Source: Powellomyces hirtus (lineage: Eukaryota; Chytridiomycota; Chytridiomycetes; Spizellomycetales; Powellomycetaceae). Taken from it: a stretch of 47,168 bases of DNA. Positions 14,132 to 43,556 of the stretch are shown piece by piece (position 1 is the stretch's first letter; every line of letters starts with the position of its first letter). Made by a program: the position numbers and the translations under genes. The notes below the pieces were generated by a model. It searched no databases. It was not told the DNA's origin and was given only the letters and a program-made list of their open reading frames with translations. The stretch lies in NCBI GenBank assembly GCA_025526995.1, contig JAHLKG010000039.1, positions 1-47,168 on the forward strand, written 5' to 3'.

Positions 14132-20812
<6,681 letters not shown>

Positions 20813-25953: not shown

Positions 25954-26228
25954 TGTAATGAGGCGTGGCTCACCAGCCTAAGCCTAGACACGCGTCGGGA
26001 AGGGTCCCGCGCGAGATGGATGCTAGCGTCAGCATCCCGAAGGGTACTAGACCTCAGGGATGGCCACGGATGGCCATCACGTGACCAGGGCCGCTCCGCG
26101 GCCTAGAAGAAAAGTAGGAATGCTCCGACGAGGGCGCATTCAAGACTTAGTGATCTGACAGTAGAATTAGAGATAGGGAATTCCCGAATAGAAGACTAGA
26201 CTCTGGCAACGGACCTAGTATTATTACA
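25954..26228 (+). repeat. Gypsy A 5' LTR
   Basis: Begins TGTAATGAGG and ends TATTATTACA. Direct repeat of 33642-33916. Confidence 0.95.
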
Positions 26229-26243
26229 TGGTAGCACCACCCC
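26229..26243 (+). promoter_or_regulatory. Gypsy A primer binding site
   Basis: TGGTAGCACCACCCC follows the LTR directly. TGGTAGC is complementary to the GCTACCA 3' end of initiator tRNA-Met; the remainder would have to be compared with this species' tRNA. Confidence 0.65.
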
Positions 26244-26256
26244 GTAGACAACAACA

Positions 26257-27465
26257 ATGGCACGTAGCACCAGGAACAGCCCAATGGCGGTAGGAGCACC
26301 GGAAGTCGACACACCGACCGACAACCCCGTCGCAATGTTGGCTGCACAATTGGCGGAGACCCAACATCTACTGCAGGAACAGATTGCAATGGGAGAGGCC
26401 CGCTTCGAAGCCCTTCTCTCAAGGATTCCGACTCCAGTCCAACCAGCGGTTGCAACACCGCACGTCGACATCATCCTGGCGGAAGAAAACCGCGCACGAA
26501 TGCAAGCCGAGAAGGAACGCCGCGAGAACCTTCGCAAGCAGCTGACACACTTCGACAGAAAAGGGAACAGTGAAGAAATGGGGTCGAAGGTCGATGAATT
26601 CTTGAAGGTCCACACGTGCTACCTTGAGGCAACCGACTTCAGGACGCACCACCGGGACGTCGACCACATCTCGGGGTACCTCAAGGAAACCGCCGACGAA
26701 TGGTGGCAAATGCTCAGAGATGCCGGCGACCAGCCCACGACATTGGAAAAATTCACGAGGGTCCTCCGCATCCGCTTCTACCCCGCCAACTTACGAAACA
26801 CCGCAGAAGCAAAGATGAAGCGGCTGGTTTTCACTAATAGCATATCGGAGTATATCGTCAAGTTCAACACCCTTTGGGCCCAGATCGTGACGCTCGACGA
26901 CAAGGAGCGGCTTACCCCAAGGCAAGAGCGTGACTATTTCTTGACGGGATTCTTGACCAACCACGTCGGCCAGCGCATTTGAGACCACTGCTATGCCGCG
27001 ATCATGAGGAACAACGGCGCCGAGATTCCGATCACCGAGCTACAGAACGAAGCCCTGTTATGCTACAGGATTCAAGGCTATGCGGACGATGTCGCGCGGG
27101 TAACCCCCGACGGAAGGAGACGTCAGTACGCTGCAGCCCAGCCGGCTCAGGTACATCGAGAGAACTATCAAGCACGAGAAAGGGGACGTCACACCTATGG
27201 CTCAGGTCGTCCCACGCGCGGTACGGACAACCACCAAGGGATCTCAGACCTCGAGCGCATCACCTATAACGAACGTCGTGAACGCAACGAATGTTTCAAC
27301 TGCGGAGGCAAGGGGCACTATGCCCGTGGGTGCTCAGCAGGTAAAGGTAAGACTGGTGGGCATAGAACGTTCGCCGCCCCTGTAGAGATCACCGAAGAGC
27401 CCGGGGACGACGCGGTCAGCGACGGGGGCTCAGTCAACAGCTCGGATTTTCGCCCCGGGTGCTGA
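26257..27465 (+). pseudogene. Gypsy A gag with one in-frame TGA
   Basis: ATG at 26257. The retrotransposon gag core lies around residues 85-240 (FLKVHTCYLEATDFRTH, WWQMLRDAG, FTRVLRIRFYP). The zinc knuckle CFNCGGKGHYARGC is at about 27295-27335. A TGA at 26980-26982 splits it in GQRI*DHCYAAI, where CGA (Arg) fits. The frame then runs to TGA at 27463-27465. The protease frame lies at -1 and overlaps the end, as in many Gypsy elements. Confidence 0.85.
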
Positions 27466-30400
27466 ACGCTTGCACCGTCTCAGTACCCCAACCCCGGATG
27501 CAAGACAAGATCCCCACGGACAGGCCGGGACCCCGCATCCACAGGAAGACATTTGTGGTTCACGGGAAGATACAAGGGCACTTTGCCCGCATCCTAATCG
27601 ATACCGGCTGTAACACCCTGATCATCAGCGACACTTGGGCAGCCAAGCACGGCCTCCGGACCTACACCTCTCCAACCCCGCTGGAGGTCCGATGGGGCGA
27701 TAGAGCGGGAAACTATGGTGCAACGAAGATGACCAGTGGGGACCTCTCGGTGTTCACCGAGGAGAAGATTACCTACCGGGAAGACACCGTACCGTTTGTG
27801 GTTGCACCGATCAGGGTTGATGTCATACTCGGCTTGCGATTCATATTGGGATTGGACGTCCGAGGGCTTTTCGATCAAGAAGGCTTCCCAACAATGACGT
27901 TTTACCACAACGGCCAGAACCTCAGCCTTCGAGCCAAATCGACTAATCGCCATTTGGAAGCACCGTCTGCATGTGCCGCCCGCCTGCTCTCCCCACGAGA
28001 GATACGACCCTGCAGATTCCAGCCGGCGAAGCCAGCACTCAATGCAGAGGGAATCTACACGGCCAAGCAATGGAAACGCTTGATGAAGAAGGGCGAGATC
28101 ACTGGAGTCTTTGAGGTACACATCGTAGATGCGATTCCAGTTGTAGAGGCTCAATTCGTACAGACGGTCGACGCCAAGAAGAGGGCGATCTTGGAGGAGC
28201 GACGCCACACCAACGCCAAAGCCAAGGCGGCAGATCAAGAGGACCCGCTAGAGACGCTGGCGGCCAACCATTCACTCTGACCGACCCTACAGAAATACGT
28301 CACGACGTTATTCACCGAGCAGTCAGGCATGCCTCCGGATCGAGGCGAGGACAATTTCACCATTCGGCTCAAACCCGGCTCGAAGCCCGTGATGCAGCCA
28401 CTCCGACATTTGAGCCTGGACGAATTGGACGAGCTCGGCCAGCAGATGCAGCGCTTAATGGACAAGGGTTGGATCTCACACTCTCGTAGCCCGTGGGGCA
28501 CGCCCGTCCTATTTGCCTCAAAGAAGGACGGCGGCTTACGCTGCTGCATTGACTACTGGGCACTGAACAAGATGACCCACAAGGATGCCACGCCACTTCC
28601 GAACCTCTCGGAACTGCGCGACAGGCTTGTCAACATGCGGGTATTTACCGCGATCAACATCCGCGACGCATACCACTGCATCATGATTCAACCGGAAGAT
28701 AGGGAGAAAACAGCGTTCCGAACACGTTTTGGACACTTCGAATACAATGTTCTACCTGTCGGCTTAACTAATGCACCTGCTACATTCCAGCGACTCACCA
28801 ACAAACGCTTGGGCGACAAATACGACGCCTACGTGATCTCATACTTCGACGATATTCTCATATTCAGCACCGACATGAATTCGCACATTCAGCACGTTGA
28901 CGAGATCCTCAAGACCTTGGCGGAACATTGCCTTCAAGTCAAACCCAGTAAATGTCAATGGGCTGTTGACAAAGTCGAGTTCTGCGGCCACCGAGTCGGC
29001 AAGGATGGCCTGAGTATTGCCCCCTCCAAGGTGACCGCGGTTTGGGAACGACCTCGCCCGACCAACTCTCTGGAGCTTCTTAGCTTCATGGGCCTCGTCA
29101 ACTATGTCAAGGAATACATCCCCGAATATGCACAGATTGCCCTACCACTAACGAATCTGCAATCCGGCAACCGCCCATGGCAGTGGGGTGACGAGGAGGA
29201 CCGAGCGTTCAATCGCTTAAAGGAATTATGCTCCTCGGCACCCCACCCTAGCGTACTTTGACCCGGCGCTCAACATCTACTTGTTCACGGACGCATTGGG
29301 CTATGCTTACGGCGGATGGCTGGCACAGCCGGCCAAAGGGGATTTCCCTTACCCCCACCCACTACCAACCACCAAATGGGGCTTAGCCAACCTTCCGCAA
29401 CTTCGCCCGGTGACATACTACTCCCGCAAGATGCAACCCGCCGAGACTCGATACCCCGTGCATGAACAAGAACTGCTGGGATTAGTCAAATCCATACGCG
29501 CCAACCGCCATTACCTCATCGGCCGCCCATTCCGCGCGTTTGTCGACCACAAATCCCTGATCTACCTCCAGGAACAACCCCTCCTGTCACGTCGCCAAGC
29601 CGGCTGGGTCGAGTTCCTCCAACAGTTCGATTTCTCAGTGGAATACCTCCCCGGCACATGGAATTCGATCGCCGACTTCCTCAGTCGCGACCCGACTTAC
29701 GCCCCCAAGTGTGCGACCTGCCAGGCCAAGATCGACATGGTCACCGCCATTGTGCAGACGGAGAAGCCCGTCACGACGCACATGCCGACCGATGCGGACT
29801 GGACCCAAGCGCTCGCATTGGATGATTTCGGCCAAAACATCTTACTAACCATCAACAGTCCACCGGAGAACCTATCCGGCCATGCACGCCGATTCCGGAC
29901 AGTGGACTCCCCTCTGCACCGCTTCTTGATGTACCATGACCGTCGGTACGTCCCCAACAGCTTGCGGGGGCCACTCCTTCAGATTCATCACGACTCCCTC
30001 GCGAACGGCGGTCACTCCGGTGTCCAACGAACGCTCGCCAAACTTCTGGAGTCGTACTATTGGCCTCACATGGAGCGTGATGTGTACCAATATGTCCGCA
30101 CCTGCCCTGCCTGCCAACGTCACAAGCGAACCGCGCCGATCGGTTTCCTCCGCAGCTTACTGATCCCCGACGCTCGTTGGCAACAAATCAGCATGGATAT
30201 ATTCTTCCCCACGTCAGGCTCTAAGGGGGGGAACCTTGGGTAGAGCCCGACGTGACAAAGAACCCTTCGCACCACACCGGCGAGAGACTGACCAAGACGG
30301 CGGACACCGTACTCCTCATCGTTGACTACCTTTCATGCTGCGTGATACTTCTACCTACTAACACACACGCTACAGCTCCGGAGACGGCTCAACTCTTTCT

Positions 30401-31388
30401 AGAACAGGCATTCCGCCACACGGGGTTACCCCACACCATTGTGAGCGATCGGGACCCCAAGTGGCTATCAGAATTCTGGCGGTACCTTATGCGGGCACTC
30501 GACGTCAAGCAGGAACTCTTGTCGGCATGACACCAACAGACCGACGGCAAGGTGGAGAACGCCATCAAGACGATCAAGGGAATCATGGGCCCCTTTCTTG
30601 ACTATGCCGGCTCCAACTGGAAGAGTTTACTCCCCACCCTCGAGTACAACTACAACCGAACGCTGCAGACGTCGACGGGACTATCCCCTTTTGAGATTGA
30701 CCTAGGCCGCGTTCCCCGGGTACCGAACCAATGGGTAGCACCAAACCCCGGAGAGATGATAAGACAATCGGCACGAACCGCCGTGGAGAGACGGATGAAG
30801 GAATTCGCCGACGTGAGTTGCATCGTGCAGCAACGGCTCCAAGACGCACAGGACCAGCAGGCAAAGTACTACGACCGCAAGAAGCACACGGAAGCATACC
30901 GAGAGGGTGACAAGGTCTTACTCCATTGTGAGGGTATCGCGATTACCAGCGTCACCACAAGGAACAAAAAGCTGGCTGAGCAATGGATTGGGCCGTTCAC
31001 AGTACGTGGCAAGGGGCCGCATCCTGACACCTACGAGCTCGAACTACCCAAGGAGTTCACCGGGTTGCACCCAGTCTTTCATGTCAGCATTCTGAGACGG
31101 TACCATGACCCGGGCGGTACCCCGTACAGACAGGTCACCGCTCCGCCTGAGCCCGAGAAGGACGAAGACGGTCAGGAGACCTACCAAGTGGACAAGATCC
31201 TAAACGCCAGATGGCACAGGAACACCGAGCAGTTCTTAGTCAAGTGGACAGGTTACGACAGCACCCAGAACACGTGGGAGCCGTATGCACACGTGAAGGG
31301 GACGACCGCACTGGAAGAATGGCTTCGGGAGCACCCCGGAGAGGACCGCGGCCAAAAGCTAGCAGCCAGGCGACGTAAGAGAACCTAG
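27444..31388 (+). pseudogene. Gypsy A pol: PR-RT-RH-INT-chromodomain
   Basis: It begins in the -1 frame relative to gag. Protease ILIDTGCNTLII (about 27590-27630). Reverse transcriptase has YFDDILIF (about 28840); the usual first catalytic Asp is Asn (TAINIRDAYH) and the CIDYRALN-type motif reads CIDYWALN. RNase H with FTDALGYAYGGWLAQ. Integrase zinc finger HHDSLANGGHSG..CPACQRHK, then MDIFFP, VSDRDPKW and VENAIKTIKG. Chromodomain YQVDKILNARWHR..FLVKWTGYDS..TWEPYAHV (31182-31330). In-frame TGA codons are at 28278-28280 and 30528-30530 (ELLSA*HQQTDG, Arg expected). One-base frame changes occur near 29240 (C-run) and 30230 (G-run). It cannot be active as written. Confidence 0.88.
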
Positions 31389-31439
31389 ATAGCGAGCTGT
31401 ACCGTAAATTAACAAGAGATATGCTACTTGAGGTAGAGG

Positions 31440-32225
31440 ACATTATAGCGCGAGATCTCGGCATCATTGGACGATGGCCGAAGGCTGCTGGGCAGCATAC
31501 CTCGCTGGGCGAGATGCCGGCATCGTTGGACGATGGCCGAAGGCTGCTGGGCAGCATACCTCACTGGGTGAGATGCCGGGATCGCTGGGCAATGAGCCGA
31601 CGGCTTGCTGATGCAAGGTGACCGGCACCAGATTTGCATGGCAGCGTACCTCGAGACCCGCGGGGACCATGGCCGTGGTACATACCTACGCGAAGGGGAA
31701 GAGAAGGGCTTCGGCCAAGATACCGGCATTGTTTGACGATGAGCCGAAGGCCGCTGGGCGGCATACCTCACTGGGTGAGAAGGGTGATGCTGGGCATCGA
31801 CCGGCTGCCGATGCAAGGTGACCGGCACCAGATTTGCATGGCAGCGTACCTTGAGACCCGCGGGGACCATGGCCGTAGTACATACCCATGCGAAGGGGAA
31901 GAGAAGGGCTTCGGCCAGGATACCGGCATTGTTTGACGATGGGCCGAAAGTCGCTGGGTGACATACCTCGCTGGGCAAGATGCCGGGATCGCTGGGCGAT
32001 GAGCCGAAGACTGCAAGGCAGTAGACCTCACGAGGTGAGATGCCGGCATTGTTGGACGATGGCCGAAGGCTGCTGGGCAGCATATCTCGCTGGGCGAGAT
32101 GCCGGGATCGTTGGACGATGAGCTGAAGACTGCAAGGCAGTAGACCTCACTAGGTGAGATACCGGCATCGTTGGACAATGGCCGGGGAACCGCTGGGCGG
32201 TCTTCCCAACGGGGAAGTGTGATGC
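31440..32225. repeat. Tandem-repeat block in the Gypsy A 3' region
   Basis: Units of about 59 bp share GATGCCGG(C/G)ATCGTTGGACGAT and GAAGGCTGCTGGGCAGCATA. They are interspersed with two copies of a longer about 200-bp segment containing GATGCAAGGTGACCGGCACC and CGGGGACCATGGCCGT. The block lies between the 3' end of sense pol and the 3' end of the antisense RING gene. The minus-strand frames it opens are translations of the repeat and not genes. Confidence 0.8.
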
Positions 32226-32450
32226 AGGGCATCTACCATGAGCACCATAGCCGGGAGGAAGCCGAGTGACATTGGACACAGCGGACGCATACGAAATGCT
32301 ATAAGGCTCAAGGGAGCACAGCGATGAGAAGGCAAGTACAGCGATGAGATTGTGGTACTGAATTTGATTATACGGGCCGAAGGCCAGGCCCCAAAGGAGC
32401 AACAGACAACAAGTGAAAGTATGTACAAGAAGGAGGGGGGGGAGAACTAA

Positions 32451-33182
32451 TCAACCAATCTTGGTGAAGGAGAATTGGCACCGGTCGCCCAACCCGCACC
32501 GGAGGGGGGTGTAATTTGCCACTTTCATCTCGCTGTGGAGAGAGCTGAGTTCGTCAGGTAAGACAGCAGCAGGCCAAAGAGTACTACTTACGCGCGGACG
32601 TGGCCCATGCAGTGGAGATGGTTGCATGGAAACATGCAGAGGTCCGCTCCGACATGGTTGCAGCCAGCGAACTGGCACCCAGCGGGGATGGCCGCAAAGA
32701 AGAGAACCCGGCCACAGTCGGGGGCGCCGCACGTCAACTGGCCCTGAGGGCCGTCATTCTGGAAAGCAAAGGAACGAAGGAACCACACCGTTAGGAAGAC
32801 ATCAGGCTGCCTCTCAGCAAAGGGGGGGACATACCGTGTCATCGGCCGCCGCCACGATGCAGGGCCGGCACACCAAATGGTGGCATTCCAATGTGAACAT
32901 CTTGCTCTTGCGGAATTGGTTGCACTTCCAGCAAGTGGGCAAGTTGGCCGACCTCTCGGGGGTGGACTTTTCATGGACCGAGGGGGCCTGTAGACAACAA
33001 CGGAAGACGGGGAACATGAGACGAGTTGCCACAGCCAAGGATGAGCACCGACCCCTACTCACCCGGGCGGGCTGGGCCCGCTTGGTTGCGCCTTTTGCAA
33101 GTTGTTGGGCAGGCCGGCGCTTGCCCATGGTGGTGGTGGTGGTGTCGGGGGGGGGAGGAGAGTTGTTGGGGGTGTCAGCCAT
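32451..33182 (-). CDS. Spliced antisense tandem-RING protein inside Gypsy A
   Basis: ATG at 33182 (ACCATGGCTGAC). Exons are 33182-33063, 32987-32835, 32758-32592 and 32532-32451. Introns are 75, 76 and 59 nt with GTGAGT, GTATGT and GTAAGT donors and CTACAG, TTCCAG and CCACAG acceptors. All phases agree, giving 173 aa without any frame break. Module 1 has RING spacing: C59-x2-C62, C75-x-H77, C80-x2-C83, C101-x4-C106. Module 2 is C119-x4-C124, C136-x-H138, C141-x2-H144, C159-x5-C165. RING modules commonly act as E3 ligases for ubiquitin; that function here is inference. It is read opposite to gag-pol, so its introns are not removed from the element's genomic RNA. The gene lies between the repeat block and the 3' LTR; its promoter probably lies in or near that LTR. 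Origin (host capture or old element gene) is unknown. Confidence 0.8.
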
Positions 33183-33641
33183 GGTGTGTGTGTGTGTGCG
33201 TGTGTGTGCGTATGTGTGTGTGTGTGGTGTGAGTTCATCAAGCTACAAAGAAAAGAAGAGCAAGAGGGGGAGATCCAACGGGCAGTACCTTTTTAAAGGC
33301 TTGACCTGCTTGGGAACGCTCGGAAATTCAGGTGTTAGTGTTTCATCCCTTACGGAGCGCAGCAGATGTTACTTATCGAAATCCGTATGGAGGAAGCTAC
33401 TCGTGATTCATCTAGGGCCCCTACGAAGAGAGAAATAGACTTTCCGACGACTTTGCGCACCACGAAGGGCGGAGACTACCCGTCGGAGACTACCGCGATG
33501 CGACCCGCTCCAGGGTCACCTCCCCAGCCTAATCTTCCCACAACCACGTCAGCATCCGTTAACCCGCCGCCACCCGGCTTAGGCAAGCTTCGCCTCGCTG
33601 AAGAGATTCGAGCCTAAGAGATAGTCGCGAATCTAAGGGGG

Positions 33642-33916
33642 TGTAATGAGGCGTGGCTCACCAGCCTAAGCCTAGACACGCGTCGGGAAGGGTCCTGCGC
33701 GAGATGGATGCTAGCGTCAGCATCCCGAAGGGTACTAGACCTCAGAGATGGCCACGGATGGCCATCACGTGACCAGGGCCGCTCCGCGGCCTAGAAGAAA
33801 AGTAGGAATGCTCCAACGAGGGCGCATTCAAGACTTAGTGATCTGACAGTAGAATTAGAGATAGGGAATTCCCGAATAGAAGACTAGACTCTGGCAACGG
33901 ACCTAGTATTATTACA
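33642..33916 (+). repeat. Gypsy A 3' LTR
   Basis: 275-bp direct repeat of the 5' LTR. Two of the three differences are C-to-T or G-to-A at CpG sites. Confidence 0.95.
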
Positions 33917-36900
33917 CAAACTCACATCCACCGCTCACATCTGGTGGAGGACCCAGGAAGGCCAGGGGACCGCCCCTCAAACATGGAACCATCTCAAAAC
34001 AACGCTACGCCTGAGATTCACACCACCAGCGTTCAGCTCGATGATCCGTGATAAACTGGATGATCTTTTGCAGACCACGTTGGTCATTGCATACAACAAT
34101 GTGTTCAACAAACTTGTCATGCAGATCCCCGACATGAACAAAGGAGAAATCGAGCATCGCTATCTCAAGGGACTCAAGCGTCCTATCTACTCGGCCATCA
34201 TCTCAAAGGATCTCTTGGACCTGGACGCCATGCAGGAAGCCGCAATCCGTCAGGAACAGCTTACCTCAGAACGGGGCGCTCGTGTGCCCAAAACCGAGTC
34301 TCACGTTGAAGCCCATGTGATGCATGGCAATTCAGACGCCAACGCAAATGAACACGCGCCTCGAAAATCATGGAAAAAACAACGTCGACGCTCAGTTCCA
34401 GGATCTCCCTGCCTCCTCTGCGAACAAACCGGTCACTGGATGAAGGACTGCCCGAAAATGAAGGACGCGTGCGAGTTCCTAAAACAACATCAGCAAGAAC
34501 CCGCTGCTGAAGCAAACCTCGTTCTGGCAACTAACCACAGATCCTCGCATTCAATCGCCCTTGACTCTTGCGCAACGCACCACACTATCAAGGACGCTAT
34601 CCTCCTTACTGACCTGCAACCCATCCCGGCAGTCCAAATCAGCGTCGCAAACGGCGAAAACCTTATCGCTCGCGAAGCAGGCACGCTCACCATCAGTAAT
34701 AACAACACGGACGAAGCCATTGTCTGCGTCGACGTGCTCTATGTACCTGAAGCGAGCCGCAACCTGGTTTCTACATCGCCACTGAACCGGGACGGTTACG
34801 AAATCATGTTCTCAACTAACGGTTCGTCCATCTTAAAGAACGGTCACGTTATCCTACCGCTCCGCCACAACGGAAACCTGCCATTTATCGATGGCTATGT
34901 TGAAACCACCGCCGCTGCTTTTGCGACCGAAGCTGCAAAACAGGACCGCAATGTCTATAAACTATGGCATCAACGCTTTGGACACATTGGACAACGAGCG
35001 CTTCAAGCTGCGAATCTGATCTATTCTCTTGATCTGCCAAACAACGTCGAACCGGAGCACGCGTTGTGCTCCGGCTGCTCTCTCGGTAAATCCACCCGGC
35101 TGCCCTTCAATGGGCAAAACTCTCGACCTGCGACCAAACCACTTGATCGCATACATTCAGACATTCTCGACATGGGCGCCAATCTTCTCTCTCTCTCTGG
35201 CGCCCGCTACATCCTCATGTTCATCGACGAATACACACAGTATTCCGTCATCTACCCCCTCAAGACCAAAGATCAAACCAACAATTATTGGCAAAAATAT
35301 TGTGCATACGCTGAACGTCACCTCGACTCCAAGATCAAGGAGCTGCGCTGCGATAACGGCAGTGAATACTATCCCCTACAGGCTGAGCTGCTCGCCGACA
35401 GGATCACGTTAAACCCTACTCACCCGTACTCCTCTCAGCAAAATGGCATTGTTGAACGGTTCAACCGTATGCTCATGGACCAGGTCCGAGCAATTCTTCA
35501 TGACAGCTGCGCTCCTTTCAAGCTTTGGGGAGAACTCGCTATGGCCGTCAACTATCTGCGTCAACTGACGCCATCAACGTCTCTCAACGGAGAGACCCCA
35601 TACCAACGTTGGTTTGGGACCCCTGCCGATGTATCGAACCTCCGCACCATCTGGAGCGTGGCCTATATGTATCAACCTGTGCACCGTCGCACACACCGCA
35701 AGCTTGGAGCTCACGCTGTCGGACCGTTCCGACTAGTGGGATATCACCCCACTAAACAAGGCAACTATCACCTTTATGATGCATCGACGGATTTGATCAT
35801 CGACGCACAAGACGTCACAATCAACAAGGCTGATTACATCAGCCCTGTCGCTCAGAGCGACACCACTCCCGAATATGTGGTTGAGCGCATCTTACTCTCT
35901 CGCTACGGCGAAGGGGGAGAGGAATTCCTGGTCAAGTGGCTTGGCTACGACGAACCAACATGGGAACCCCTCGACAACGTCAAGGATTCAGAGGCCCTGA
36001 CGCGATTCACCGGAATCAAAGATGACGGCACACCCGTAATCGCCGAACTGCATGCCGCATGCAGCACTGACATTGACGAGCCTGCCACTTACCAGGCGGC
36101 AATCAACTCACCGTACGCGAAAGAGTGGAAACAAGCGATCGACGCCGAACTCTCATCTCACTGCACTAATAAGACGTGGGACACGGATACCACGCAAACA
36201 CCACCCGGCACTCACCTTGTTGATTCTAAATGGGTCTTCAAAGTCAAACGCAACGCCGATGGTTCCATCAAAAAGTTCAAAGCCCTCCTTGTCACCCGAG
36301 GCTTCACGCAGCGTGAAGGCATTGACTTCAACAAAACTTACGCGCCCGTCGTCAAGTTTAACACCTTGCGGGTGCTACTCGCGCTTGCTGCTAAGCTCGA
36401 CCTTCACGTCCATCAGATGGACGTCATCACCGCATTTCTCAACAGAGATCTCAACGTAGAGATCTGGATGCGGCTCCCAGCTGGCGTCGCTGACAATGTC
36501 GTCAAACTACGCCGTTCCCTTTACGGCCTTAAACAATCGCCGCGCCTATGGAACAAGGTCCTTGACTCCTTCCTTCAACAGCTCGGGTTCTCAGTATCAG
36601 AATTTGACACTGCGCTCTACATTAAGCGGACTGACAACACAAAGATCCTGATTGTTGCTGTCTACGTGGATGACCTCACGATTTCCGCATCAGACCTTGA
36701 TGACCTGCTCGCTCTCAAATCCGCACTTGCCGAACGCTTCAAGATGGAGGACATGGGGGAGATCTCTTTCCTTCTCGGTCTTCAGATTACGTGCGACCGG
36801 TCAAAGCGATGCATTACCATCGGCCAACAGAAGTACATCAAAGACATGATTGACAAGTTTAACCTTAATGGCATGCGGCCGCATCACATCCCGATGGACC

Positions 36901-38035
36901 CGAACCTACACCTTAATGCGAACGATGGAGCCGACGCCCTCGACGCATCAGGAATCAAGGAATACCAGTCGATCATTGGAACACTAATGTATCTGATGTT
37001 AGGGACTCGCCCCGACCTGGCCTACTCAGTCTCCCGCTTATCTCAGTTTCTGGCAGCACCGACGGCCGCACACATGACAGCCGCAAAGAACGTTTGCGCG
37101 TATGCAAACACAACCAGTGATCTCTCTCTTGTCTTCAAAGATGGGGGAGATATTGTCGGATATTCGGATGCCGACTATGCACGCTGTACGGACACGCGTC
37201 GCTCAACCTCTGAATATGTATTCATGCTCAACGGAGCTGCCATTTCATGGAAATCTCAACGTCAAAAATCAATGTCGCTATCCACAGCAGAAGCAGAATA
37301 CATTGCACTCGCGGAATGTGCAAAGGAAGCACTCTGGATCCAGGGTCTCCTATCCGAACTGTCAGCAACGGAGCAGACAGCAGTTCTCATCTATGAGGAC
37401 AATCAGGCCGCTATCAAACTTGCTGCCAATCCAACGCATCACCAATGAACCAAACACATCAATGTCCGTTATCACTTCCTGCGAGACCTCGTTGGTAACG
37501 AGCGCATTCACCTGCAGTACATTGAGTCCAAGCTCATGCTGGCTGACGCCCTGACGAAACCGCTACCTCGCCCATTACTTGATGATCTGCGACACTGAAC
37601 TGGACTCCGAACGAAATCAGATTACGCCAAATCTCATTGATATACACCCATCATAAGTCTAGTTGAAATACACCCGCCGCAACCACCATCTCAATCGACG
37701 GTCCGACTTGTTGCATTTCGGGCAGCGTACTTCTCCACTCTGATGCACCAGACCCCGTGAACAGCTTTCACACAGAAAACAGGGGTCATTCTCTCCACAA
37801 GCGTGCGGCGTCCGACAGTCTTTTATTGTATAACACAGCGCACACCGCTTTCTCGTCACGTCCCCTTCGAAGAGGTTAACCCACGACCTCCTGTGCAATA
37901 CGAAACATCAATACCCTGAAACCAGCACAACGGAACTCCTTCCTCACCTGCAGATAGCACATCTGCGTGCAGCGTCGTCAAGTGCCACCCAACTGTACTG
38001 CAAACACTTGAACCAAAACAGGTGTCCGCAGCTCC

Positions 38036-38528: not shown

Positions 38529-39731
38529 ATGGCTGCACCTGGACCTGCCGCCTGGACCTTCCCCGCCGTAGGCCCCGCCCTCCAAAATGGTGATCGGCTC
38601 AGTGAAATCACCTTGCGTACAACTCTCCTTGCCAATACGAAGATGATCCCATACTTCTCCAGCGAGCATGATATGGAGCTGATCGACCTCTTCGTCACTA
38701 CGAACGTCTGAGCGTGCAATCACTTCATCACGGCTTATACCGGCATTGCCTACAACGAGTTCAATTACTTCAATGAGTACGCCATCACCAACATGGACCC
38801 TTCAGTCGTCGCTTGGCACACTGCTATCATGAACAATCTCCGTGTTCAGCCCGCCGCTCCTGCCGAAGGCGTTGCCGCCTGGTGGGCCACCCAGTTCTAT
38901 CAACGCTGGATGCCTCGCAACGTCACCAATTGTCTGCATCAAGAAATGGCGGCCCTTTCACTTGGAAACTCGCTTGAAGATTACATCCGTGAGCTAGAAC
39001 AATACCGACATCTCGAGACAATTGCTGTCCGCGCCAACGGCAGTGCCACCGAGCGACTTCTCCTTGAATCCGAGATGATCGACATCTTTTGCGCAGGCCT
39101 TCTCCGCAATCCAACTTAGGGCCTCTATGTCCTTCAAGCCCTCCAAAACTTTATGACGATGAGACTTACCAATGGTCAACCCGTCACCTGGCCCTTAGCC
39201 GTGATATGCGTCCGAAACGCAGCAGCCTCCCGCAATCTGGTCGATGGCTACCTTACTACTCCGGCACGGGCACAAGCCAAGGCCCCTGCCCGATTCCATC
39301 CTTACTCGGGCATCGAACAAGCTCCCTCTCGTACTCCTCGCCGGAGCTTTCAGCAACCCGTACCGGTTACTCCTCGAAGGACAACAACAGAATCGCAAAC
39401 ATCCAAACAATCCATTCCGCAAACACCAAGAAAGAGATCTGGCGTGCCAACCCCAGTTATGACTCCACAACAAACTCCTACACGGAGACCAGCATTCCCC
39501 AGGACTCCAGGTACTCCTAAAACTCCAACGAAGCGGGGAAGTGCGATGCTTTGCAAACGATGTGGACAAACAAATCACACCATCCAAGATTGTTTCACCA
39601 AACGGGACGTCAACGGTGAAACTCTTGAACAACGAGCCACTGGTAGCAACTATCCCGTCCGACAAATCAACCGCATCAGTGAAGTCGAAACCGACGAGCA
39701 AGAACAGGATTTTCTGGACGGCTGGGAGTAG
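38529..39731 (+). pseudogene. Gypsy C gag with TGA and TAG stops
   Basis: ATG at 38529 (MAAPGPAAWTFPAVGPALQN). One frame continues through TGA at 38709-38711 (FVTTNV*ACNHF) and TAG at 39117-39119 (RNPT*GLYVLQAL) to a TAG at 39729-39731. A gag core (WWATQFYQRWMPRNVT, LEDYIRELEQYRHLE) and zinc knuckle CKRCGQTNHTIQDC (about 39550-39595) are present. The rest is Pro/Thr/Arg-rich. Confidence 0.82.
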
Positions 39732-42700
39732 AAATCGGTTCCTCTCAGCTCAATAAGGGACATACTATCTTCCCTGAATCCGATATACCATGGATGACAT
39801 GCAATCGACCACCTGAAAGCCCTAAGGGCAATCCTACATCCATTCGACAAATGGACTTCCAAACCCGACTTCAACCCGGCAAGGCTTCGAGTGCACCTAG
39901 CTGGGTCTTCCGAGTCAAGATGGGTACCAAGCCAATTATAGCCCTCCTAGATACTGGTTGCAACACTATGGTCGTTCAAGAACGCATCGCTAGCGAACGA
40001 AAACTCGAGAAAAGGGCTCTCGACAAACCATATGATATCGATACCGCCGGCGCCGGTCAAACCATTCGAATCACCTCCCTCACAACTCAACCAATTCAAA
40101 TCTTTAATGATGCTTCGCAAGATTATGATCCCGTTGCCTCGTTCCACTTCGAGATCGTGCCTATTGAAATCCCGCTCATCTTGAGACTTCCATTCTTTGA
40201 AGCGATTGGTACTTTCACCTGTGTTGCTATCGAGCGACCACACCGCATCCTGTTTACTTTAGACAGAAAAGCTTTCAACTGTTCATCTCTTCCATCCAAG
40301 CGGCACGCTCAGAGTCCCGACTCATTCGTCAAGAAGGCTCAAACGTTCACCATTCACGGAGCTGCTAAAAGCGTTAAGCGTGAGCAACAGAAGCCCTTCC
40401 AGGGTATTGCCACTATCTCGACGAAACGATTCAACAAACAACTTCGACATAAGCAATATCAAGAAGCGTTCGCAGTCCATATACGCCCTACTACGAAAGA
40501 TAACAAGGCTGAGACTGATCCTTCTTGGCCTAAATTCCTTGACTCAATCCTTCAATGATTCAAAAATACTCTCTTTAAGGAAACCGATGAGTTACCTCCC
40601 GATCGCGGCGATAACAACTTCCATATTGACATCATCCCCGGATCGAAACCGGTCTTCCAGGCATTACGTCCTATATCACAAGATCAACTGAGCGAACTAC
40701 GGAAACAACTAGATCACCTCCTCTCAAAAGGATGGATTCAACATTCGAAGTCACCATGGGGAGCATCAGTGGTCTTTGCTGTCAAGAAAACGGGTGGAAT
40801 ACGCGTCTGTTGGGACTATTGTGGACTGAATGCCGTCACAATCAAGGACCGCACTCCACTTCTCAATCTTTGAGAAATGCGCAACCAGCTTCTCGGCGCC
40901 CGCCTCTATACGCTCATTGATTTGAAGGACGCATACCATCGACTGCTCATCGCTCCGGAAGATCGCGAGAAAACGGCCATCCGTACAGGATTTGGACTTT
41001 TCGAATATGTCGTCATGCCCTTTGGGCTTTGCAACACACCTGGCGCCTTTCAACGGCTCATGAACCAAGTGCTAGGCGATCTCTACGACATCTGCGCCAT
41101 CTGCTACCTCGACGACATTCTTATCTTCTCGCCCGATCCCACTACACATTGACAACACGTAGCCGAAGTCCTTCAGCGATTACAAGATCATTCGCTCTAT
41201 GTTAACGCTGCCAAATGTCAATGGGGCCAAAGGGAAATTGAATTCTGCGGCCATCTCTTCAGTGTCAATGGCATGCGAATTGCGGACAGCAAGGTCGCAG
41301 CTGTTCGGGATTGGCCAACCCCACGGACCACACGACATATCCAACAATTCCTTGGGTTGACAAACTACTTTCTCGACTACATCCAACGGTATGCCGAAAT
41401 CGCTGCGCCACTATCAGCTTTGCAAGGCGTCAAAAGCGCTTTCGAATGGACAGCCAAGGAGCAAAAAGCCTTTGATGCTCTCAAGGATGCTATCACAAGC
41501 GCTCCAGTCCTAGCGACGACATTCAATCCAGACCATCCAATCTACGTCCATACCGATTCATCTGGCTATGCCATTTCTGGATGGTTAGGACAAACTAACG
41601 ATGGAGCATCTCTCCCCATGCCTTTACCGATCCATCGAGTACAAGCTATGGAGCAACTACCCAAACTTTGTCCGGTACTTTTCTTTTTGCGCAAGATTAA
41701 TGGAGCCGAGACCCGATATCCGGTACACGAGCAAAAGCTACTAGCCCTTGTGAAGTTCCTCAAGACGAATCGGTTTTACCTTATCAATTGGCCCTTTATC
41801 GCTCTTGTTGATCATCGATCACTCGTGCACCTGCAAATGCAACCACACCTGAGTAAACGCCAAGCCGGATGGGTTGAAACGCTGCAAGAATTTGACTTCT
41901 CAATCCAATATCTTCCCGGCCGATTCAACACCATCGCCGACCTGCTCTCGCGAAACCCTACATATGCACCACGGTGCATTGAATGTCAAAAACGACTCAT
42001 AGTTACAACGTATATGAATACCAACAAGCATCCATTTCCGACTACATTCGGATTCGAACAATGGAAACATGAATTGCTTCAAGATGAATATGCGCTCCAC
42101 ATCATTGAAATGCTTGAAAAACCAGAGCATGAGCGCCCTGGTCGTTATCGCAGATTCGCCATACGACCCAATGGAATCATCAGGTACGAAGGCGAATGGC
42201 TTTACGTCCTGTATACAATCCGACCACACGTTCTCAGAGAGTTCCACGATGAACTTCCTAACGGCGGACATCAAGGGCCATTAGTCACTTATGCTAAAAT
42301 GTTGCGTTGATACTTCTGGCCCAAGATGCAGCAAGACATTCGCTCTTTCATCCGAACCTGCGCCAAATGCCGCTCGTTTTCACGTCCACCTCACAATGGC
42401 CTCTTAAGACCACTTCCCATACCATCAACGGTCAATCACACTCATGGGTTCGACCTTTTTGAGTTACCCCGACCTCGAGGAAGTCCCGAGCGCCCCTTTA
42501 TCATTTGCATCGTTGACTATTTATCAAGCCGAACGCACCTAGTCCCTGCGGAAAGCACTCCCTCTACAAACGAGTTAATGACGCTCATCCTGAGCCAAGT
42601 TTGGAAACATACCGGCATACCTCTCCTCATAATATCCGACCGAGAACCCAGGTTATTAGCAGACCTTTTCTCCGCCTTTGCCAAGTTAACCGGCGTCAAA

Positions 42701-43556
42701 CACGAGTTTGCTACAGCACGACATCAACAAACTGACGGCCGAGTAGAAAGAATGATCCAAGTTACTAAATTTGTCATCCGCAAATACCTTGATTATAGCG
42801 GATCCAACTGGCGTGAATTCCTACCATTGGTCGAGTTCTGCCTCAATTCGATGCCCCGACGCCATCTCAATGGCCTTGCTCCATTCGAAATTGAGTTGAA
42901 CCGAATGCCACGCCCTCCAGGCTGGAATACCGATCCAGAACAACTTGCTCAGATGACATCGCCAAACCGAGCTCTTGTTCGACTGTACCAGGAACGAGCT
43001 GCCAAAATCAATCTCACGGTTCAACAAGCTCTTCGCGACGAGCAGGACCGTTATGAGCAAATACTTTAACCAAGGGCACACCCCCATTGCCTTCGAAATA
43101 GGCGATCTCGTCGATCTTAATCGCGAACAACTTGCAATCAACTTCGACCAAGTTAAACCAGCCAATCTCACGCCCAAGTGGATCGGACCGTTTACTATTT
43201 CGGCCAAAGGACCTCATCCAGACACATATCGCTTAGACCTTTCCCAAACGGTTCTCAAGGCGATCTGGCCCTATTTTCATGTTAACATATTACAGAAGCA
43301 CGTGCCCCCCACGCACCCGCTCTGCAATCAAACACCACCTCCGCCAGAGCTGGTCCTCATCGAAGGGGAACTCGAGTACCCGGTCGAAGCAATCCTCAAT
43401 GAGACGGTAACCGGCCAAGGCCGAGCCCGCCGCCGAATGTTCCTGACCAAATACATTGGCTGGCCCGAACCCTCCTGGCAACCCGAAGCCAACCTCAAAG
43501 ACACGGAGGCGTTCGAGATATGGCGAGTCAACAATCCCCCTCTCCCGCTCAGATAG
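39732..43556 (+). pseudogene. Gypsy C pol: PR-RT-RH-INT-chromodomain
   Basis: The frame is -1 relative to gag. Protease LLDTGCNTMVVQ (about 39945). Reverse transcriptase with TLIDLKDAYH (first catalytic Asp present) and YLDDILIFS (41105-41130). RNase H with VHTDSSGYAISGWLGQ. Integrase zinc finger HDELPNGGHQG..CAKCRSF, GFDLF, ISDREPRL and GRVERMIQ. Chromodomain YPVEAILNETVTG..FLTKYIGWPEPSWQPEANL (43377-43515). Interrupting codons are TGA at 40556, 40871 (LNL*EMRN), 41150 (TTH*QHVAEV) and 42308 (KMLR*YFWP), with Arg expected at several. A one-base frame change occurs near 43060. The final stop is at 43554-43556. Confidence 0.88.

Follow-up and report, generated by a model that had tools for sequence, protein, structure and literature searches.

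How a gene interrupted by spliceosomal introns can persist in an element whose replication passes through RNA, and what such a gene might do, are questions raised by a 47,168-nucleotide stretch of DNA from the chytrid Powellomyces hirtus (Spizellomycetales; GenBank assembly GCA_025526995.1, contig JAHLKG010000039.1). This stretch, hereafter the window, is the whole of contig C39. It contains a copy of a Ty3/Gypsy chromovirus, Gypsy A, with a four-exon gene on the strand opposite gag-pol, between pol and the 3' long terminal repeat (LTR). The gene recurs, introns included, in other insertions of the element in the same genome, where changes shared among copies are constrained by selection, and it occurs in two anciently diverged versions, one of which was found on a nearly identical element backbone. 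The gene itself, the selection on it and the mosaic element are well supported; the target of the product is not. The gene is laid out as follows.

32451..33182, minus strand: antisense gene, four exons, 173 aa, from splicing and translation, with splice sites and exon lengths kept in copies
33063..33182, minus strand: exon 1, 120 nt, ATG at 33182, with a P/T-rich start, a poly-C tract and a basic stretch
32988..33062, minus strand: intron 1, 75 nt, GTGAGT..CAG
32835..32987, minus strand: exon 2, 153 nt (in 57/57 copies), covering C59-C83 of the RING-like module
32759..32834, minus strand: intron 2, 76 nt, GTATGT..CAG
32592..32758, minus strand: exon 3, 167 nt (in 55/57 copies), covering C101-H144
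32533..32591, minus strand: intron 3, 59 nt, GTAAGT..CAG
32451..32532, minus strand: exon 4, 82 nt, stop included
33183..33641, minus strand: sequence upstream of the gene and its presumed promoter, where a TTTAAAA box at 33297-33290 is conserved (49 copies aligned for conservation, 48 tallied for the box)

Splicing and translation of this strand reproduce the four exons, canonical splice borders and 173-aa product described in a sequence-only reading of the window, and all the Cys and His residue numbers given there are correct in the spliced protein. The poly-C tract in exon 1, from 33182 to about 33125, is the site where most frameshifted copies differ; after this tract, the window-type gene has an ATG (Met19) in CCACCATGG context. 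Coding on the plus strand, by an open reading frame (ORF) at 32626-33438, was considered and rejected: it has no Pfam match, and copies differ in the longest stop-free run of the element strand. The parts of the host element are listed below.

25954..33916, plus strand (gag-pol): Gypsy A chromovirus copy bearing the antisense gene, from the LTR pair, CAAAC target duplication and Pfam domains
25954..26228, plus strand: 5' LTR, 275 nt, from LTR pair comparison
26257..31388, plus strand: gag-pol region, with several broken frames in the window copy, from Pfam and stop-free stretches
31389..32440, plus strand: repeat region of ~1 kb separating pol from the antisense gene, made of tandem repeats and found in other copies
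33642..33916, plus strand: 3' LTR, 275 nt, from LTR pair comparison

Pfam models for gag, CCHC, protease, reverse transcriptase (RT), RNase H, H2C2, SH3 and Chromo match plus-strand ORFs of the window element; the integrase core is unmatched in the plus-strand ORFs listed for the broken copy in the window. RT, RNase H, H2C2 and a C-terminal chromodomain stand in Gypsy order between paired LTRs with a short target duplication, the arrangement of a Ty3/Gypsy chromovirus. The two LTRs differ at 3/275 positions, and CAAAC flanks the element on both sides, bearing out the earlier placement of the gene between pol and the 3' LTR inside intact target duplications. In this position, and in its orientation opposite gag-pol, the gene corresponds to the antisense additional ORFs of LTR elements. 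The window element and its flanks are identical to a locus on contig C23 (955/955 and 889/889 flanking bases), and the two copies, not being independent, were therefore counted as one. Over the element and the compared flanks, at least, contig C39 duplicates a portion of contig C23; additionally, the host protein P0002 is encoded on two contigs. One host ORF of the window shows 91% identity, across 73% of its length, to DFJ77DRAFT_551438 of P. hirtus.

The gene is widespread in the genome. In a DNA search with 89 candidates, 40 copies were scored, at 89-100% identity, and a 26-nt motif from exon 3, allowing up to three mismatches, occurs at 68 places, with none in the control. Copies of the window version, type I, were read in sets of 20, 20, 15 and 2 (n=57). 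The order and orientation of repeat region, gene and upstream region are constant in all 20 loci of the first set, 18 of which show the chromodomain part and 18 the 3' LTR. In 51/57 copies an LTR is found upstream of the ATG, at a distance of no more than 900 nt; two of the remaining six are short sequence stretches. Thirteen loci have two near-complete LTRs, differing by 1-13 bases within a pair; perfect 5-bp target duplications flank 11 of them (10 distinct), one has a 4/5 match and one has none. The ten distinct insertions with perfect duplications, introns included, agree with the prediction that the gene travels with the element, as they should if the introns lie antisense in the genomic RNA. 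A check set beforehand, for the gene and its splice sites in other copies, likewise found the gene kept: aligned to the window, 47/57 copies have GT-AG at all three introns. Intron 2, 73-81 nt long, has a length divisible by three in 27/57 copies and indivisible in the other 30, and exon 1 has a length indivisible by three in 13/57 copies, mostly around the poly-C tract. In 41/57 copies exon 1 is in frame and the reading frame stays open for 165 aa or more; 34 of these have GT-AG at every intron, with 32 distinct coding sequences.

Counting from the other side, a 28-nt chromodomain motif marks 92 places, and the gene lies within 4 kb in the right orientation at 76 of them (type I at 63, type II, the second version described below, at 13). 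Two of the 16 places at which no gene was found were read; C53, one of the other 14, lies within about 1.1 kb of a contig end. A gene-free sister family was considered; of the two loci read, L068 is cut by inserted DNA and L069 is internally deleted. L068 (G000:C15:384800-386963) is a Gypsy A copy interrupted within the repeat region by an unrelated insert that reads as a Copia-like element. L069 (G000:C1:127625-129260) has lost most of the antisense gene through an internal deletion between G-rich stretches and retains the repeat region, the ATG end, the upstream region and the LTR start; a second copy on C1 has equal LTR spacing.

Selection was measured on 53 distinct copies over 160 codons from the basic stretch on, leaving aside L055, L066 and two identical duplicates, by pairwise NG86 and by counts of nonsynonymous and synonymous changes (N:S) in singletons versus shared changes. 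Codon positions 1, 2 and 3 have diversities of 0.052, 0.031 and 0.084, and the introns one of 0.069. In the gene frame, the ratio of nonsynonymous to synonymous divergence (dN/dS) is 0.32 and 0.31 within two subgroups and 0.29 between them, about 0.3 and not near 1, the value named beforehand as contrary to a functional gene; shifted frames give 0.79-1.04 (frame +1) and 1.46-1.82 (frame +2). N:S is 98:33 for singletons, 26:9 for changes in two copies and 34:37 for changes in three or more (p 1.8e-4), against a neutral expectation of 2.59 in which transitions were, by our choice, weighted fourfold. Without CpG sites the counts are 48:16, 10:2 and 7:16, respectively (p 2.9e-4). Changes common to at least three copies are constrained, and singletons are near neutral. 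The three frames of the introns lack this contrast (p 0.63, 1 and 0.63). Within gag-pol, the same contrast is seen in RNase H/H2C2 (14 copies, p 8.9e-6) and in the chromodomain (16 copies, p 8.3e-5), and is absent from gag (13 copies, p 0.18) and RT (14 copies, p 1); the +1 frames of RNase H and the chromodomain give p 0.046 and 0.038 in the direction opposite to that of the gene.

A search of the genome with the database protein P0001, introduced below, reaches relatives down to 34% identity among the matches listed. At least 18 places in the genome read as the second version, type II. Ten divergent places were read: eight are type II, and two, L073 and L074 (G000:C16 and C38), hold a third, decayed form that has lost several ligands. 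Aligned to L070, all eight type II copies have exons of 120, 153, 167 and 97 nt, with the three intron positions of type I. GT-AG borders are found in 8/8 copies at introns 1 and 2 and in 5/8 at intron 3, intron 1 measures 58-59 nt, and 7/8 copies have no inner stop. The type II protein is 53% identical to the window protein; across four type I and type II pairs, dN is 0.37-0.39, dS is 0.91-1.10 and introns are 47-57% alike. N:S in type II is 65:50 for singletons and 24:25 for shared changes, with no difference between them (p 0.40) and both below the neutral value. All 16 presumed zinc ligands named in the sequence-only reading are identical between L013 and L070, against 79/162 of other residues (p 2.5e-5), a test that the reading could not have fitted; the second version was invisible to it.

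The type II element on contig C15, the one type II element whose repeat region and LTR were compared, is a mosaic. In 100-base bins it matches the window at 89-99% from the end of pol to about 32,390, at 53-67% over 32,489-33,288, at 83-88% over 33,289-33,588 and at 97% in the next bin, where the LTR starts; its chromodomain matches at 96%. The C15 repeat region is 4.8% different from those of 15 type I copies (3.8% among themselves) and its LTR 6.9% different from 50 type I copies (6.1% among themselves); exons 2 and 3 are 38.2% different from 53 type I copies (5.8% among themselves). Gene and presumed promoter form an exchangeable cassette, with mosaicism seen in this one compared element. 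The simplest reading of these sequences is that the cassette was exchanged between elements, for example by template switching.

The protein encoded by the cassette has two Cys/His modules, the first being C59-x2-C62-x12-C75-x-H77-x2-C80-x2-C83-x17-C101-x4-C106. Module 1 of the window protein matches PF00097 weakly (E 0.0013, 19 bits, Pfam cut-off 21). At E up to 1, PF00097 is found in 8/8 members of profile A1 and PF14634 in 8/10 of profile A2 (best E 0.001), and a PDB profile search finds the RING of Polycomb group RING finger protein 5 (PCGF5; 4s3o; E 0.0018 with A1, 0.023 with A2). The PCGF5 RING shares the spacing around the first six ligands and differs in that the match is weak and ends before the last ligand pair. 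In 100,000 shuffles of the protein, the module 1 core arises in 26 and the tandem pattern in none, and the pattern is thus more than chance. These data are consistent with a RING-like module 1. Exon 3 alone, which holds most of module 2, matches nothing, and module 2 is a predicted zinc-binding module. The tandem RING originally proposed is therefore retained in part: the spacing and the weak matches of module 1 stand, the scores lie below curated thresholds and module 2 is unmatched. The basic N-terminal stretch could act as a nuclear signal. Against PHROGs, one of ten proteins gave one weak match (E 0.077).

Among 5.8 billion proteins, the sole match at E up to 0.1 (sequence and profile A1, type I query) is P0001, deposited as 'oncoid [Powellomyces chytrid fungus MELD virus 1]'. 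It is identical to the antisense gene in 141/197 aligned columns, the gaps being introns 1 and 2, and differs in having been deposited as an unspliced, truncated ORF of 197 aa from a putative DNA virus; it ends where exon 3 ends, at a TAA inside the intron 3 donor. It is identical to no copy in the genome, the nearest being at 95-96% among the matches listed. Judged by this alignment, the deposited viral 'oncoid' is an unspliced reading of the gene found here in retrotransposons. As to membership of a MELD virus, the copies read sit in Gypsy elements; PF03175 (PolB) is unmatched in the genome, in a search whose control was uninformative. An IMG/VR scan with P0001 returned no relative.

HBZ of human T-lymphotropic virus 1 (HTLV-1) is an antisense spliced gene of a retroelement. 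The protein described here differs from it: Pfam, searched up to E 1, gives no bZIP match. HBZ is also mentioned in PMC11963269, and extra ORFs are carried by rotifer LTR elements (PMC5408684, in part). Antisense genes in Gypsy elements have been described in plants (Grande, Retand) and in the fungal element Boty (brtn), lying between pol and the 3' LTR and having no known function according to PMC7264820. The closest likeness is brtn of the Boty-like Gypsy elements of Botrytis cinerea (Zhao et al. 2011, as cited in PMC7264820 and PMC8365987), likewise an extra gene of a fungal Gypsy element, antisense to gag-pol in the same interval; the excerpts of both papers mention neither introns nor a RING for brtn, which is set apart here by description and not by sequence. 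The plant ORFs Grande gene23, RIRE2, Retand TRP28 and PvRetro13 differ in encoding other protein domains, and neither of the words intron and RING occurs in the texts of PMC7264820 and PMC11963269; Retand resembles the window element in having tandem repeats in that region. No intron-bearing or RING-coding antisense gene of an LTR element was recognized in the open-access literature searched, where hits other than the papers named were judged from listings. The novelty originally claimed for the locus is accordingly narrower, antisense genes in this interval being already on record in plants and in fungal Boty (PMC7264820, in part).

The explanation that we favor, and consider probable though far from secure, is an accessory antisense gene kept by selection, exchangeable in two versions and encoding a host-directed product. 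Transcription of the gene, opposite gag-pol, would start at a promoter of its own located between it and the 3' LTR, and the antisense mRNA would lose three spliceosomal introns. The genomic RNA that is reverse transcribed would hold these introns in antisense orientation, and for that reason they would survive retrotransposition. The product would be small, its N-terminus basic, and would bind zinc through two modules, of which the first is RING-like. Selection would maintain this protein through rounds of transposition, with each copy decaying neutrally after insertion, and the two anciently diverged versions would ride near-identical elements as a cassette of gene and promoter. Most likely the protein targets a host factor in trans, for instance dampening silencing of the element via the ubiquitin machinery, and host-element conflict would be mirrored in the two versions. 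Pol and LTR are common to both versions, making a cognate partner there less likely than a host target.

Several observations limit the finding or weigh against this explanation. The window copy has a broken pol, with a longest stop-free stretch on the element strand of 340 codons, compared with 1338-1340 codons in L014, L016, L019 and L024. The 16/92 chromodomain places at which no gene was found suggest that a copy may be able to do without the gene, and a benefit acting in trans would accrue to every copy in a cell, weakening selection on any one of them. Restricted to the 18 distinct long loci, the comparison of singletons with shared changes gives no contrast for the gene (41:28 vs 2:3, p 0.64), and frame +1 of RT gives p 0.021 in the same direction as the gene, from few sites. 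The reverse frame that shares third positions yields the contrast of the gene (p 6.7e-5), and the singleton/shared test alone therefore cannot fix the strand; of shared changes silent in one frame only, two are in the gene frame and none in the reverse frame. The strand is fixed by introns, exon lengths and ligands. Finally, no RING model exceeds its Pfam cut-off in the window protein (PF00097, the best, has 19 bits vs 21), and the strict RING consensus, with a final C-x2-C, is not found, the last pair being C-x4-C in both versions. What is borne out of the sequence-only interpretation is a real gene that travels with its element; the product is a candidate RING ubiquitin ligase at most, its RING similarity staying below curated thresholds.

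HTLV HBZ and Ty1 p22 are self-regulators of the retroelements that encode them, and the same gene might here specify a zinc protein that works in the nucleus to regulate transcription or copy number of its own element. The basic N-terminal stretch would suit such a role, inclusion of the presumed promoter in the diverged cassette fits autoregulation, and nuclear location and a regulatory role have been proposed for plant antisense proteins (PMC7264820, in part). Both versions share LTR and pol, however, and no diverged partner is seen there; we place self-regulation second and think it rather unlikely, host-directed action with conflict-driven divergence being our first choice. It is much less probable that the gene is a captured host gene riding as a passenger with no benefit to the element. 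Its introns are typical of host genes and LTR elements are known to capture genes (PMC7264820, in part), but the gene is present at 76/92 chromodomain places, changes shared by copies show purifying selection (dN/dS <1 internally, by proxy), two anciently diverged versions sit in elements and no host copy was recognized among the matches listed. An ancient host origin of the gene may nevertheless be compatible with these data. We find it equally improbable that antisense RNA rather than protein is what matters, through double-stranded RNA or transcriptional interference. Antisense RNA control has been proposed for such genes (PMC7264820, in part), but diversity by codon position, frame-keeping exon lengths and conserved ligands need a protein; the two effects could hold together. 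Least credible of all is an unspliced gene that in truth encodes the read-through ORF, known from its deposition as the 197-aa 'oncoid': P0001 is that ORF, 27/57 copies have an intron 2 whose length is divisible by three and read-through ORFs of ~200 aa occur in many copies, but intron 2 breaks the frame in the other 30, type II intron 1 is 58-59 nt, introns show no coding constraint, and exon 4 keeps frame and ligands behind intron 3.

Elsewhere in the window, positions 14427-19511 are a run of about 5,085 C (99% matches), probably an assembly artefact, which accounts for the huge overlapping ORFs listed there. A Copia-type ORF of 1135 aa (RVT_2) lies at 34041-37448 on the plus strand; between its integrase and RT a chromodomain is matched (E 5e-10), which looks unusual for a Copia pol. 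A further Gypsy-like element lies in pieces at 39153-43069 on the plus strand, with CCHC, protease, RNase H and integrase matches.

For the biology of these elements, the accessory gene and its exchangeable cassette suggest, tentatively and as one possibility, a wider arrangement in which a polymorphic intron-bearing cassette moves by recombination between near-identical LTR retrotransposons while selection keeps at least two anciently diverged protein versions in one genome, as in host-parasite conflict or self-recognition; this would amount to a system of accessory-gene alleles with a RING-like effector. The single genome of P. hirtus holds a spliced antisense protein gene kept by selection while its element moves, in two ancient versions on nearly one backbone, and shows how an element replicating through RNA can retain spliceosomal introns. 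With the important residues known and the cassette swap pointing to a target outside pol and LTR, the function of such genes becomes testable.
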